From: Bacteroidia bacterium
Lineage (GTDB): Bacteria > Bacteroidota > Bacteroidia > Chitinophagales > JAUHXS01
DNA: 64,000 nucleotides
Direction of reading: 5' to 3'
Assembly: GCA_030426955.1 (NCBI GenBank)
Contig: JAUHXS010000004.1
Span: 124,001 to 188,000, forward strand
The notes beneath the pieces are model-generated. The model was not told the origin of the DNA and did no database searches. It was given only the letters and a program-made list of their open reading frames with translations. Within the stretch, counting starts at the first letter, position 1. Each line of letters begins with the position of its first letter. Shown here in pieces: positions 20,166-51,077 of the stretch. Both the position numbers and the translations under genes were made by a program.

Positions 20166-20378
20166 ATGGGAGAATTAAGTCAGTTTGTAAAAGAAAGGAG
20201 AAAACTACTAGGTCTCACTCAAGAAGATTTATCTTTTAAAGCAGGTGTGGGATTACGGTTTATTAGAGAGTTAGAGCAGGGCAAAGAATCACTTATGATG
20301 GATAAGATTAACCAAGTGTTATATCTTTTTGGGCATCAATTAGGACCAGTACAAAAGCATCATAATGAAGAAAGCTAG
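20166..20378 (+). CDS. hipB: HipB-like HTH antitoxin/repressor
   Basis: A 70-residue Xre-family helix-turn-helix protein of the HipB/Y4mF type. The HTH is clear: RRKLLGLTQEDLSFKAGV, then LRFIRELEQGKESLMMDKI. It should bind the three TATACC-N6-GGTATA operators upstream, repress its own operon, and form part of the antitoxin complex. It overlaps the next gene by 14 bases, so the three genes are a coupled operon. No C-terminal extension is present, as in many short HipB proteins. Confidence 0.88.
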   Translation: MGELSQFVKERRKLLGLTQEDLSFKAGVGLRFIRELEQGKESLMMDKINQVLYLFGHQLGPVQKHHNEES

Positions 20379-20694
20379 AGTTTATATGTATGGCCAATTG
20401 GCTGGTATGTTATCAGAAGATGAGCACGGTTATCACTTTAAATATGATGAATTATACCTCAATACTGAAAGTTCTGAACCCATTAGTTTAACGCTTCCAC
20501 TAGATACAAAAGAATACCAGAGCAATATACTTTTTCCTTTTTTTGATGGGTTAATACCTGAAGGATGGTTATTGGATATAGCTCAGAAAAGCTGGAAGCT
20601 AAACCCAAGAGATCGTATGGAGATTTTATTACATACCTGCCAAGACTGTATAGGAGCAGTATCAATTGAAGCAATAGCTGAGCATGAAAAATAA
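20365..20694 (+). CDS. hipS: HipS-like protein (separate HipA N-terminal domain)
   Basis: A 109-residue protein equivalent to the N-terminal subdomain 1 of HipA (couple_hipA), encoded as its own gene. The sequence ISLTLPLDTKEY, then FPFFDGLIPEGWLLDIAQ, followed by CQDCIGAVSI, matches the family core. In characterised HipBST systems (E. coli O127) the HipS protein is the antitoxin that neutralises the HipT kinase, with HipB helping and giving autoregulation. Position and size match that plan. It overlaps both neighbours (14 and 11 bases). Confidence 0.85.
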   Translation: MKKARVYMYGQLAGMLSEDEHGYHFKYDELYLNTESSEPISLTLPLDTKEYQSNILFPFFDGLIPEGWLLDIAQKSWKLNPRDRMEILLHTCQDCIGAVSIEAIAEHEK

Positions 20695-21643
20695 ATGTCT
20701 ATACTGTTATAATGAACTATCTTCTTTGGAATTGAAATCGGAAGCAGGAAAGAGCAGGTTTCATGAAAGATGTTGTAAAAAGTTTTTTGGGAAATCGACT
20801 CCACCTATAATTGGCTTTACAAAAGATCAATTACTTGAATTAGCGGAAAAAGTAGTTAAGTCACAAAAAACGGTTACAGGAGTTCAACCCAAACTCTCTT
20901 TAGGAATTAATAGAAATCATAATATTCCAGATAGACTTACTATCGTGGGCTTATGGGGAGAATATATCCTCAAACCCCAAAATGAAATGTATCTAAAGCT
21001 TCCTGAAAATGAAGACTTAACGATGCATTTAGCTGAGTCTTGCAAAATCAAAACCGTCCCACACTCACTTATTAGGATAAAGTCTGGTGAACTCGCCTAT
21101 ATCACAAAACGGGTTGATAGGCAAAATAACAAGAAGATTCCCATGGAAGATATGTGCCAGTTGACTGAGCGATTGACGGAGCATAAATACAAAGGGTCAT
21201 ATGAACAAATTGCCAAAGCAATTAAAAAGTATTCTATCAATCCTGGATTAGATATTATTGATTTTTACGAATTAGTCCTATTTAGCTTTCTCACGGGGAA
21301 TAACGATATGCACTTAAAAAATTTCTCCCTTCTTAGGTCTAAACTGGGCTTCCAACTCTGTCCAGCATATGATTTGGTTGCTTCTGAACTTGCTGTTAAA
21401 ACGGATGATGAGGATCTTGCTTTAACTCTGAATGGAAAAAAGAATAAGATAAAAAAAGCAGACTTTATAGCAGCTATGAGAGCAAGTAATATAGACGAGA
21501 AAGTAATTGACAATATTTTCCGAAAGTACAGTGAACTTAGCAAGGGCTGGAGTAAAATAATTAATCGGAGTTTTCTAACATCTGAGTTAAAGACTGAATA
21601 CAAGGAATTGATTAATAAAAAAGTCGCGCAGATAGAACTATAA
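20684..21643 (+). CDS. hipT: HipT-like serine/threonine kinase toxin with N-terminal zinc-finger-like motif
   Basis: A 319-residue HipA-fold kinase without the N-terminal subdomain, which is the preceding gene. The glycine-rich loop region TGVQPKLSLGI lies near residues 64-74, the catalytic GNNDMHLKNFSLL near 205, and the metal-binding AYDLVASE near 227, so the active site appears intact. HipA phosphorylates glutamyl-tRNA synthetase and HipT tryptophanyl-tRNA synthetase; the target here is unknown. The first 35 residues carry CLYC and HERCC, a probable zinc site seen in related Bacteroidota proteins but absent from E. coli HipA. The loop has one serine in place of the paired autophosphorylation serines of E. 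coli HipT. Confidence 0.87.
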   Translation: MKNKCLYCYNELSSLELKSEAGKSRFHERCCKKFFGKSTPPIIGFTKDQLLELAEKVVKSQKTVTGVQPKLSLGINRNHNIPDRLTIVGLWGEYILKPQNEMYLKLPENEDLTMHLAESCKIKTVPHSLIRIKSGELAYITKRVDRQNNKKIPMEDMCQLTERLTEHKYKGSYEQIAKAIKKYSINPGLDIIDFYELVLFSFLTGNNDMHLKNFSLLRSKLGFQLCPAYDLVASELAVKTDDEDLALTLNGKKNKIKKADFIAAMRASNIDEKVIDNIFRKYSELSKGWSKIINRSFLTSELKTEYKELINKKVAQIEL

Positions 21644-36741: not shown

Positions 36742-36779
36742 CTAACTTTGATGCTTTGTCAGCAAAATAGTTACGCCTT

Positions 36780-37340
36780 ATAATACGCTTAGCCAATTCA
36801 GAAGATATAAGCTCAATCAAACAGATTGCAGATATTCAGCTAGGTAATAATTATTTATCAGAAGTTGATTTAAAAAATCATATCAACAGTAAGACTACAT
36901 TGATACACATCTACCAGCAAAAAGATATAATAATTGGCTTTTCTATTGGACACTTTTGTAATTTCAATCAATTAGTCGAATTTCTTTTCATTAATCCTCA
37001 ATGGATAAGATCAAGCTTTAGTGAGACAAAACGATTCTTTTATCGTAAGGTTATTTGCACAATGCCAGAATTTGAGCACCAAGGTATAGCACACCAACTA
37101 GTAAAACAAAGTATTGAATCTGTTCAAAGTAAGTGTGATATCATTTTATCCATTTGTTGGAACAAAAGTGGTGTTGCTCCATTTGGAAAAATTTTAGAAG
37201 CGTTTAACTTTGAGGTTATAAAAGTATTTAATGAATATTGGAAACAAGATAGCATTGACAAAAAGTATCTCTGCGCTATATGTGGAACGCCACCTTGCCT
37301 TTGTGATGCTACACTTTATGCTTTAAACATAGTAGGCTAG
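36780..37340 (+). CDS. GNAT acetyltransferase with cysteine-rich tail; start codon non-canonical
   Basis: A GNAT-fold acyltransferase. The acetyl-CoA motif A is visible in CTMPEFEHQGIAHQLV. The first standard start in frame is TTG at 36900, but the frame is open for 40 more codons upstream and encodes IRLANSEDISSIKQIADIQL, which is the normal first strand and helix of a GNAT. No ATG, GTG or TTG exists in that stretch, so initiation at ATA (36780 or 36783) or loss of the original start must be considered. The tail holds four cysteines (C165, C168, C173, C175 in CAICGTPPCLC), a possible metal site. It ends one base before the PP-loop gene and belongs to a three-gene operon. Confidence 0.8.
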   Translation: MIRLANSEDISSIKQIADIQLGNNYLSEVDLKNHINSKTTLIHIYQQKDIIIGFSIGHFCNFNQLVEFLFINPQWIRSSFSETKRFFYRKVICTMPEFEHQGIAHQLVKQSIESVQSKCDIILSICWNKSGVAPFGKILEAFNFEVIKVFNEYWKQDSIDKKYLCAICGTPPCLCDATLYALNIVG

Positions 37341-37341
37341 G

Positions 37342-37995
37342 ATGTTAAGTTACAACAAGACTAAGTTCAACACCATTATTCCCTTTTCAGGAGGCATTGA
37401 TAGTACGGCTGCTCTGTACTCTACTTTAATAAAAAATCCTGATAAAAAGTACTTGGTTTTTCATATTGATATAATTAATGCAACTAGCGGCAACCGATAT
37501 ATTTTGGAAAAAAAAGCGGTGCAAAATATTTTAACCTACCTGCTAGAAAATAGTATCAGTAATTTTTGCTTTAAAAGTCTAAGTATAGATTACTCCAATT
37601 TTGATATTCCTTTAGTATGGGATAGTGAGGTAGTTAACTTTATGGCAGCCATGATCGTACAAGACAAACCTGAAATTGAAGAATTCATAGAAGGTGCTAT
37701 CTGGGATGACTATCAGGAAGAAGGATTTAAAGAACGTTTAATGAAAATAGCATCTATATTTTATACTTGTTCAGGTAGAACAGAAAATGATTTCAAATTT
37801 TCCTTCCCCTTAAAGAATTTAAAAAAACATGAAGTAATGCGACTTATTCCGCATGAATTATTGAAAGTAACATGGTCATGTCGATATCCCGAAATTGGAT
37901 TACCGTATACACTGGTTAGATGTCACAAGTGCCCCCCTTGCAAAATAATAGACAACGCTTTTAAGCAACACCCAAATGAATTTCCAATGTTATGA
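37342..37995 (+). CDS. QueC-like PP-loop ATPase with zinc motif
   Basis: A 217-residue PP-loop (adenine nucleotide alpha-hydrolase) protein. The PP-loop SGGIDST lies at residues 16-22, and a cysteine set at 180, 194, 197 and 200 (C-x13-CHKCPPC) matches the zinc motif of 7-cyano-7-deazaguanine synthase QueC. QueC converts a carboxy-deazaguanine to preQ0 with ATP and ammonia; related QueC-like proteins act in the Qat and type IV CBASS defence systems. No queD, queE or queF is in the window, so a role outside queuosine synthesis is likely. The stop overlaps the SET-domain gene by 4 bases. Confidence 0.88.
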   Translation: MLSYNKTKFNTIIPFSGGIDSTAALYSTLIKNPDKKYLVFHIDIINATSGNRYILEKKAVQNILTYLLENSISNFCFKSLSIDYSNFDIPLVWDSEVVNFMAAMIVQDKPEIEEFIEGAIWDDYQEEGFKERLMKIASIFYTCSGRTENDFKFSFPLKNLKKHEVMRLIPHELLKVTWSCRYPEIGLPYTLVRCHKCPPCKIIDNAFKQHPNEFPML

Positions 37996-38339
37996 TTGTA
38001 AAAGAAGTAGATTTAATGAAAGGCCTTTTCAGCAGTAAAAACTATTCAGCCGGAGAAGTAGTATATATTCCTAAAGGAGAGATTTTAAGTCAGCCTACCA
38101 GAGAGTCCATACAAGTAGCTCCTGGAAGGCACATTAACATAAAGGATGAAGGTCAATTCATTAATCATTCTTGCAGACCCAATTGTGAAGTAAAGGGAGG
38201 AAAAGTAATCGCAATAAGACCTATAATTATAGGAGATGAAATTACATTTGACTACAATCATTCTGAAGACCGATTAAGTAACCCATTCATTTGTAACTGC
38301 TGTAATAGACTCATATCTGGAAGACTATCAGTACGATAA
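37992..38339 (+). CDS. Minimal SET-domain methyltransferase
   Basis: A 115-residue protein consisting of little more than a SET domain. KGLFSSKNYSAGEVVYIPKG is the N-terminal SET strand region, INHSCRPNCEV (residues 57-67) is the cofactor-binding motif, and GDEITFDYN (81-89) holds the catalytic tyrosine. A post-SET-like CNCC at 101-104 may bind zinc with a neighbour. SET proteins methylate lysine side chains; bacterial members are uncommon and their substrates mostly unknown. Overlap with the QueC-like gene indicates coupled translation, so the substrate may be a product or partner of the same operon. Confidence 0.88.
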   Translation: MIVKEVDLMKGLFSSKNYSAGEVVYIPKGEILSQPTRESIQVAPGRHINIKDEGQFINHSCRPNCEVKGGKVIAIRPIIIGDEITFDYNHSEDRLSNPFICNCCNRLISGRLSVR

Positions 38340-50406: not shown

Positions 50407-50748
50407 TTATTTTGATTCAGAATCAATAATATCCCTAATGGAAATTTCCAACTTAGGAAGCTCCATTTCTATTATATTCCACACTATCTCATAGTCAACT
50501 CCAAAATAGTGATGGATTAATTTATCTCTAGTTCCAGCAAGCTCTTTCCACTCTACCTCAGAATATTGATACCTAAAGTCTTCAGGCAGTTTCTTTGTTG
50601 CTTCACCTATTATCTCTAAGCTTCTTATCACTGCTCTTTGCAGAAGCTCATTTTTCAAAAATGCCTCTTCAGTCAACCCACTAGTCTGCTTCAGAACAAA
50701 TACAATCTCGTCTAAAATATGCTTTAAAAAATCAAGCTGCGATAACAT
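50407..50748 (-). CDS. hepT: HepT-like toxin (DUF86, HEPN ribonuclease)
   Basis: A 113-residue all-helical HEPN protein. The catalytic Rx4HxY motif is intact at R74, H79 and Y81 (RDKLIHHY). HepT cleaves RNA and is paired with the nucleotidyltransferase MntA, which in characterised systems inactivates HepT by adding AMP units to the motif tyrosine. The gene overlaps mntA by 17 bases, so the two are coupled, with the antitoxin first. It lies in a minus-strand run between rluB and the M42 peptidase. Confidence 0.9.
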   Translation of the reverse strand: MLSQLDFLKHILDEIVFVLKQTSGLTEEAFLKNELLQRAVIRSLEIIGEATKKLPEDFRYQYSEVEWKELAGTRDKLIHHYFGVDYEIVWNIIEMELPKLEISIRDIIDSESK

Positions 50749-51043
50749 ACTCTATTTCTTGCATTATTTTAGGTCCAATGTAGGGGCTCATTGACTTGTC
50801 TGTTAATATTTCAACAGGTCTTCCAAGGATTTCTTCTAGGTTGAATGACAATGCCATAAAGTTCTTAAATGTCTTCTTTCCCACAACAAACTCAACTACC
50901 AGATCGACATCGCTACCATCTAATGGTACGTCTTTAACGAAAGAACCAAATATGCCTAATCTTTTTACGCCACATTCAAGCAGAAGGGCTTTATTAGATA
51001 ATAGCCTTTCAATTAAATCTTTTTTATTAGCTACTTTTGACAT
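50732..51043 (-). CDS. mntA: MntA-like minimal nucleotidyltransferase antitoxin
   Basis: A 103-residue nucleotidyltransferase with the GSx10DxD active site intact (G33, S34, D45, D47 in GIFGSFVKDVPLDGSDVD) and a third acidic residue likely further on. It should neutralise HepT by AMP transfer. I prefer the ATG that gives MSKVANKKDLIERLL; an ATG at 51070 would add nine residues that look unlike the family. It starts 35 bases after the rluB stop, so it is probably in the same transcript. Confidence 0.9.
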   Translation of the reverse strand: MSKVANKKDLIERLLSNKALLLECGVKRLGIFGSFVKDVPLDGSDVDLVVEFVVGKKTFKNFMALSFNLEEILGRPVEILTDKSMSPYIGPKIMQEIEYVIAA

Positions 51044-51077
51044 CGCTACAAATTTAAAGATTTTAAGCATTAAATCA

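Follow-up and report, generated by a model that had tools for sequence, protein, structure and literature searches.

A compact operon encoding a cysteine-tailed GNAT, a QueC-fold PP-loop ATPase, and a minimal SET protein: a possible small-molecule tailoring module

We analyzed three packed genes within a 64,000-nucleotide stretch of Bacteroidia DNA (the window), which encode a GNAT-fold protein, a QueC-fold PP-loop protein with an intact ATP motif and lost deazaguanine residues, and a minimal SET protein. The reading that we tentatively favor, and hold to be somewhat short of probable, is that the operon encodes a rare module that tailors an amino acid or an amine derived from one. In the order of steps that we infer, the QueC-fold enzyme would adenylate a carboxylate with ATP and couple it to an amine, forming an amide as in QueC/Cap9 chemistry. 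The GNAT, docked or stabilized by its cysteine tail, would acylate the amino group of the same intermediate, which, in the window organism, the small SET enzyme would then N- or S-methylate. Aureispira would instead rely on the LysA-type PLP decarboxylase domain of its GNAT to supply or trim the amine. A small amino acid or amine is suggested as the substrate because a LysA-like decarboxylase is fused to the GNAT in relatives; this fusion and the amino acid enzymes encoded beside SET relatives are the strongest pointers to a small molecule. With less confidence again, we consider it possible that the operon represents a new biosynthetic module, in which a remodeled QueC amide ligase and a cysteine-tailed GNAT work with lineage-specific finishers (the SET here and the PLP decarboxylase in Aureispira). 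If true, this would imply a new metabolite class and a role for QueC beyond deazaguanines. So far, the QueC scaffold has been linked to deazaguanine chemistry and, more recently, to the conjugation of proteins in phage defense; a clade that has kept the ATP site, has lost the deazaguanine residues, occurs in bacteria and phages, and is paired with a GNAT offers a testable route to a new QueC-fold reaction.

Operon layout and the cysteine-tailed GNAT

The features of the operon are as follows.

36780..37340, + strand: predicted GNAT-fold N-acyltransferase with C-terminal CAICGTPPCLC (ORF; structure model, pLDDT 82)
37272..37319, + strand: codons for the diagnostic, zinc-knuckle-like GNAT tail CAICGTPPCLCDATLY, residues 165-180 (alignments of relatives)
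37342..37995, + strand: QueC-fold PP-loop ATPase, phrog_1550-related, with a non-canonical substrate pocket (Pfam; model, pLDDT 91; alignments)
37387..37407, + strand: SGGIDST pyrophosphate-binding (PP) loop, residues 16-22 of the PP-loop protein (sequence)
37873..37941, + strand: WSCR...CHKCPPC four-cysteine (zinc-type) motif, residues 178-200 of the PP-loop protein (alignment)
37992..38339, + strand: minimal SET-domain methyltransferase, 115 aa, with a shortened post-SET cysteine loop (Pfam; tree; alignment)

The initial annotation had described three packed genes with spacings of +1 and -4, and the open reading frames bear this out: the GNAT stop codon (TAG, 37338-37340) is followed after 1 base by the ATG of the PP-loop gene (37342), and the TGA of the latter, which ends at 37995, overlaps the SET ATG at 37992 by 4 bases (ATGA). 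The motifs that it had named are also present, namely HQGIA in the GNAT, SGGIDST and Cys-180, Cys-194, Cys-197, and Cys-200 in the PP-loop protein, and NHSCRPN and GDEITFDY in the SET protein. The nearest neighbors of the operon encode an ECF sigma factor, a TonB-domain protein, and type IX secretion proteins, and inspection of the operon revealed no transporter or carrier protein gene within it. A consensus promoter and terminator scan returned matches near chance level. Recent transfer of the operon was rejected, as its genes give no composition signal (GC3 of 0.25-0.30 compared with a mean of 0.29).

The GNAT Pfam models scored below their cut-off on the product of 36780..37340 (20.1 versus 23.6 bits). 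Despite this, we assign it as a GNAT-fold N-acyltransferase on the strength of its structure model, which matched Naa60/RimI-type acetyltransferases with an E of about 1e-9 in a structure search, the closest folds being the N-terminal acetyltransferases Naa60, RimI, and Ard1. Its most diagnostic feature, missed by the initial annotation, is the C-terminal CAICGTPPCLC motif (CxxCGxPPCxC type), a putative zinc knuckle whose cysteines are invariant in all aligned relatives except one partial set. The window GNAT is 23-29% identical to homologues with the same cysteine motif and is a member of what we define here as the cysteine-tailed GNAT family, that is, a GNAT fold with a C-terminal CxxCGxPPCxC.

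The 5' end of the GNAT gene is irregular. No in-frame ATG, GTG, or TTG is found at the point where GNAT homology begins, and the first standard start (TTG at 36900) would cut ~40 conserved residues. Further upstream lies an in-frame TAG (36768), across which the profile match extends back, and an out-of-frame ATG at 36751 encodes MLCQQNSYAL, which resembles the homologue N terminus MHQTISYSLSF. Translation would begin either at an ATA at 36780 or at the ATG at 36751 with a one-base shift near 36777, and the reading frame in the window may be damaged or unusually started.

Fold, substrate pocket, and phage relatives of the PP-loop protein

The PP-loop protein scored 31.9 bits with the Pfam QueC model (cut-off 22), and the nearest solved structure to its own model (pLDDT 91) was QueC (E 9e-7, TM 0.59), with Cap9 (9nto) and tRNA thiolases also matched in the structure search. 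By profile, it is assigned to the poorly known family phrog_1550, phage proteins annotated as "QueC-like queuosine biosynthesis" (E 1.3e-17 over residues 10-209, nearly full length), and the nearest viral model was that of a Mycobacterium phage Muddy protein (TM 0.75/0.88, rmsd 2.2). SGGIDS is invariant in the alignment of its relatives.

Alignment with Escherichia coli QueC revealed that the ATP loop (SGGxDS), the four cysteines, and the equivalents of Arg-38, Glu-42, and Lys-165 are retained. The spacing of the conserved cysteines differs, reading C(x)13CxxCxxC in the window protein compared with C(x)8CxxCxxC in QueC, and the signatures YxQxHxxE, VPxRN, and YPDC are lost: Tyr-35 is absent, Arg-99-Asn-100 is replaced by Ser-95-Glu-96 beside Asp-94, the YPDC deletion takes away the equivalent of Tyr-131, and Tyr-189 is replaced by Arg-181. 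Tyr-35, Arg-99, Tyr-131, and Tyr-189 of E. coli QueC are essential for preQ0 by mutagenesis (PMC13329287), and both Cap9 and QueC recognize deazaguanine via the Tyr and Asp of the YPDC region (PMC13279940). The protein scored 16.4 bits with TIGR00364 (cut-off 150.3), no QueC above the family cut-off was found in the window genome or seven other genomes, and neither queD nor queE lies alongside the operon. Canonical QueC identity was rejected on the lost essential residues and the TIGR00364 score, and a de novo role in queuosine synthesis is not expected; the view of the initial annotation that this is a QueC-like enzyme outside queuosine synthesis thus holds. A deazaguanine substrate is disfavored by the YPDC loss and the lack of a canonical QueC in the genome, although two PTPS/QueD-type genes exist there. 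Because the VPxRN region reads WDSE in the Saprospiraceae clade of PP-loop proteins, the pocket appears acidic and would suit a cationic substrate better than carboxydeazaguanine.

The phage relatives of the PP-loop protein, in Muddy (gp16), FF47, and PIS136, are 18-37% identical to it; an initial search of viral sequences with the window protein alone gave no match. Most phage copies, which lie in head-tail operons, carry IP[RK][DN] in the pocket, in contrast to PxWDSE in the Saprospiraceae copies. In Muddy, FF47, and an IMG/VR contig (L003:4364-5579, L005:4349-5564, and L017:4954-6873, respectively), the gene lies beside a major tail/capsid-like gene in a head-tail operon, a placement suggestive of modification of virion proteins. 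Directly downstream of the PP-loop gene in Saccharomonospora phage PIS136 and a related contig (L002:5998-7457 and L015:5451-6913) is a gene for a RimK/Ddl-like ATP-grasp ligase. No cysteine-tailed GNAT accompanies the PP-loop copies in the phage records searched, and a search of the phage collection returned no GNAT and no SET matches.

Distribution of the GNAT-PP-loop pair and relatives of the SET protein

Within the order, we surveyed a 398-genome sample; beyond it, the search covered genome contigs (the matches listed), a sample of the phylum queried with the window sequence alone, and plasmid and phage collections. The PP-loop protein was found in 6 of the 398 genomes, and strong cysteine-tailed GNAT matches occurred in the same six and in G006 (80% complete), in which no PP-loop was detected; other GNAT matches were weak and tail-less. 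The G006 relative (L083:6680-7237) has its frame split near the C terminus. The co-occurrence of GNAT and PP-loop has a hypergeometric P of 1e-12 by genome and about 2e-4 by genus, the independent count being two genera because five of the six PP-loop genomes share one genus. Bacterial PP-loop relatives at 51-53% identity were confined, among the matches listed, to Aureispira-like Saprospiraceae. The two genes are adjacent in the window and in four Aureispira-group loci (L023, L024, L047, and L048); both were also found in G481, the genome of L023. They lie apart in G665/G483 and G770. The plasmid collection gave no PP-loop matches, and plasmid GNAT relatives (Aliarcobacter, haloarchaeal, and Pseudoalteromonas) had no PP-loop on the same replicon in a search run without a positive control.

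At the four adjacent Aureispira-group loci, the GNAT forms the N-terminal part of a ~600-residue protein, the rest of which is a fold-III, LysA-like PLP decarboxylase by Pfam in the two copies scanned (Orn_Arg_deC_N, E 1e-30 to 1e-32). This domain differs from a second, LysA-like copy at another site in the L024 genome, and its nearest solved relatives are diaminopimelate (DAP) decarboxylase and BtrK, enzymes of a type whose substrates are free or carrier-bound amino acids. In the window genome, the sole copy is a LysA-like one that is not fused to a GNAT, and the GNAT likewise lacks the decarboxylase in two Aureispira-group genomes in which GNAT and PP-loop are not adjacent. MccE of microcin C is also a decarboxylase-GNAT fusion with a fold-III decarboxylase, as in Aureispira P0001/P0002, but its domain order is reversed and no microcin C genes were seen.

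The SET protein scored 44.1 bits with Pfam SET (PF00856; cut-off 22.4) and contains NHSCxPN and GDEITFDY; its SAM-binding and catalytic motifs are intact by sequence. Compared with its relatives, both of its ends are shortened, and four residues are missing from the post-SET cysteine loop. The best-scoring PDB matches were histone methyltransferases over residues 54-104, and the sole non-histone PDB relative at E ≤ 1e-4 was BurB (residues 16-110, E 1.3e-5), a free-methionine S-methyltransferase (PMC12542666). BurB and small bacterial SETs encoded beside ATP-grasp or PLP enzymes share the minimal SET core, whereas the window SET is shorter, has the post-SET deletion, and has no ATP-grasp or decarboxylase gene alongside. 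SET matches occurred in 79 of the 398 genomes, mostly with a second SET-bearing protein of ~480 residues; the nearest SETs in the order are 38-41% identical, and in the tree the window SET is a long, loosely placed branch related to them.

SET relatives adjoin a DAP-decarboxylase-like gene (L012), racemase and PLP genes (L014), and Ddl-type ATP-grasp ligase genes (L129-L131). On the Sphingomonas plasmid L012 (5863-7601), the SET gene overlaps the DAP-decarboxylase-like gene in a BurB-like pairing. The three Chitinophagales-type loci (L129:4295-7348, L130:4367-7407, and L131:4484-7552) share a conserved operon of three genes encoding, in this order, a SET of ~165 aa, a Ddl-like ATP-grasp protein of 363 aa, and an ATP-grasp-SET fusion of ~480 aa. 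The SET query also matched a ~480-aa protein in roughly 60 of the 398 genomes, in most cases a few kb away from the short SET. Our literature search found no paper on a SET and ATP-grasp operon.

The initial annotation had treated the three genes as one linked set. The GNAT-PP-loop part of this linkage recurs, in a few close relatives from one group; recurrence of all three genes is not supported. No related SET was found in three Aureispira-group genomes searched directly with the SET query or in five PP-loop-bearing relatives from the order survey; because the SET is unmatched in these relatives, the full set of three has so far been seen in the window genome alone. A conserved three-gene operon was rejected, since no linked SET accompanies the pair in other genomes.

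Competing explanations for the operon

The main rival is modification of a protein, in which the QueC-fold enzyme would carry out a Cap9-like attachment to a protein N terminus or side chain and the GNAT and SET would acetylate and methylate the same protein; it takes this place because QueC-fold enzymes do so in CBASS and phage copies lie among virion genes. Cap9 conjugates a nucleobase to a protein N terminus, and a similar action has been proposed for QatC (PMC13279940). We nevertheless consider this rival unlikely. The likeness of the PP-loop model to Cap9, that of the GNAT model to N-terminal acetyltransferases, and the phage copies beside major tail/capsid genes or, in PIS136, a RimK/Ddl-like ATP-grasp gene speak for it, but the GNAT match is weak evidence because all GNATs share a similar fold, the operon encodes no candidate substrate protein, the deazaguanine-reading YPDC motif is deleted, and a decarboxylase is fused to the GNAT in relatives. 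The stepwise modification pathway of the initial annotation is accordingly narrowed by that fusion, a small molecule being the favored target and a protein a possible one. Counting against small-molecule tailoring are the phage relatives among head-tail structural genes, a setting compatible with protein modification; the SET, with its long branch, histone methyltransferase matches, and lack of linkage to the pair elsewhere; the missing transporter or carrier; the two Aureispira-group genomes with the pair apart and no decarboxylase; and the possibly damaged or oddly started GNAT frame. Next in rank, and improbable in our view, is a genuine GNAT-PP-loop pair with the SET as an unrelated passenger in the transcript. 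Its absence beside the pair in other genomes, its shortened ends, and its shorter post-SET loop would agree with a passenger, but the ATGA overlap suggests translational coupling and the SAM-binding and catalytic motifs are intact.

The remaining explanations carry little weight. The initial annotation had offered a defense or signaling module as an option. QueC-like proteins occur in Qat and type IV CBASS (PMC13329287, PMC13279940), and a PADLOC QueC model matched the window protein weakly (E 5e-4). Like the window protein, Cap9 and QatC have a QueC fold outside queuosine synthesis. However, the Y/FxQ(x)5E and YxDC motifs of Cap9 are absent, the QatC model scored 13.2 bits (cut-off 280), no CD-NTase, qatA, qatB, qatD, or effector gene accompanies the operon, its nearest neighbors gave no PADLOC matches, and relatives sit in housekeeping neighborhoods. 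We rejected a defense system on the PADLOC result and gene context and regard a defense or signaling cassette of the Qat or type IV CBASS kind as very unlikely. A decaying or chance-adjacent group of genes without a common function seems just as improbable; the irregular GNAT start and the uniqueness of the three-gene set would fit decay, but the motifs are conserved, the PP-loop protein keeps 51-53% identity across families, and it co-occurs with the GNAT. Least credible of all is that the PP-loop protein is the preQ0 synthase of the organism, with incidental neighbors: the Pfam QueC score and the two PTPS/QueD-type genes are outweighed by the replacement or deletion of all four essential residues, the TIGR00364 score, and the lack of queD or queE alongside. 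Elsewhere in the window, and far from the operon, we note a PDC-S09-type small protein with an MNT/HEPN-like partner (50407-51070) and a HipA-like pair (20365-21643), both of which are probable toxin-antitoxin modules.
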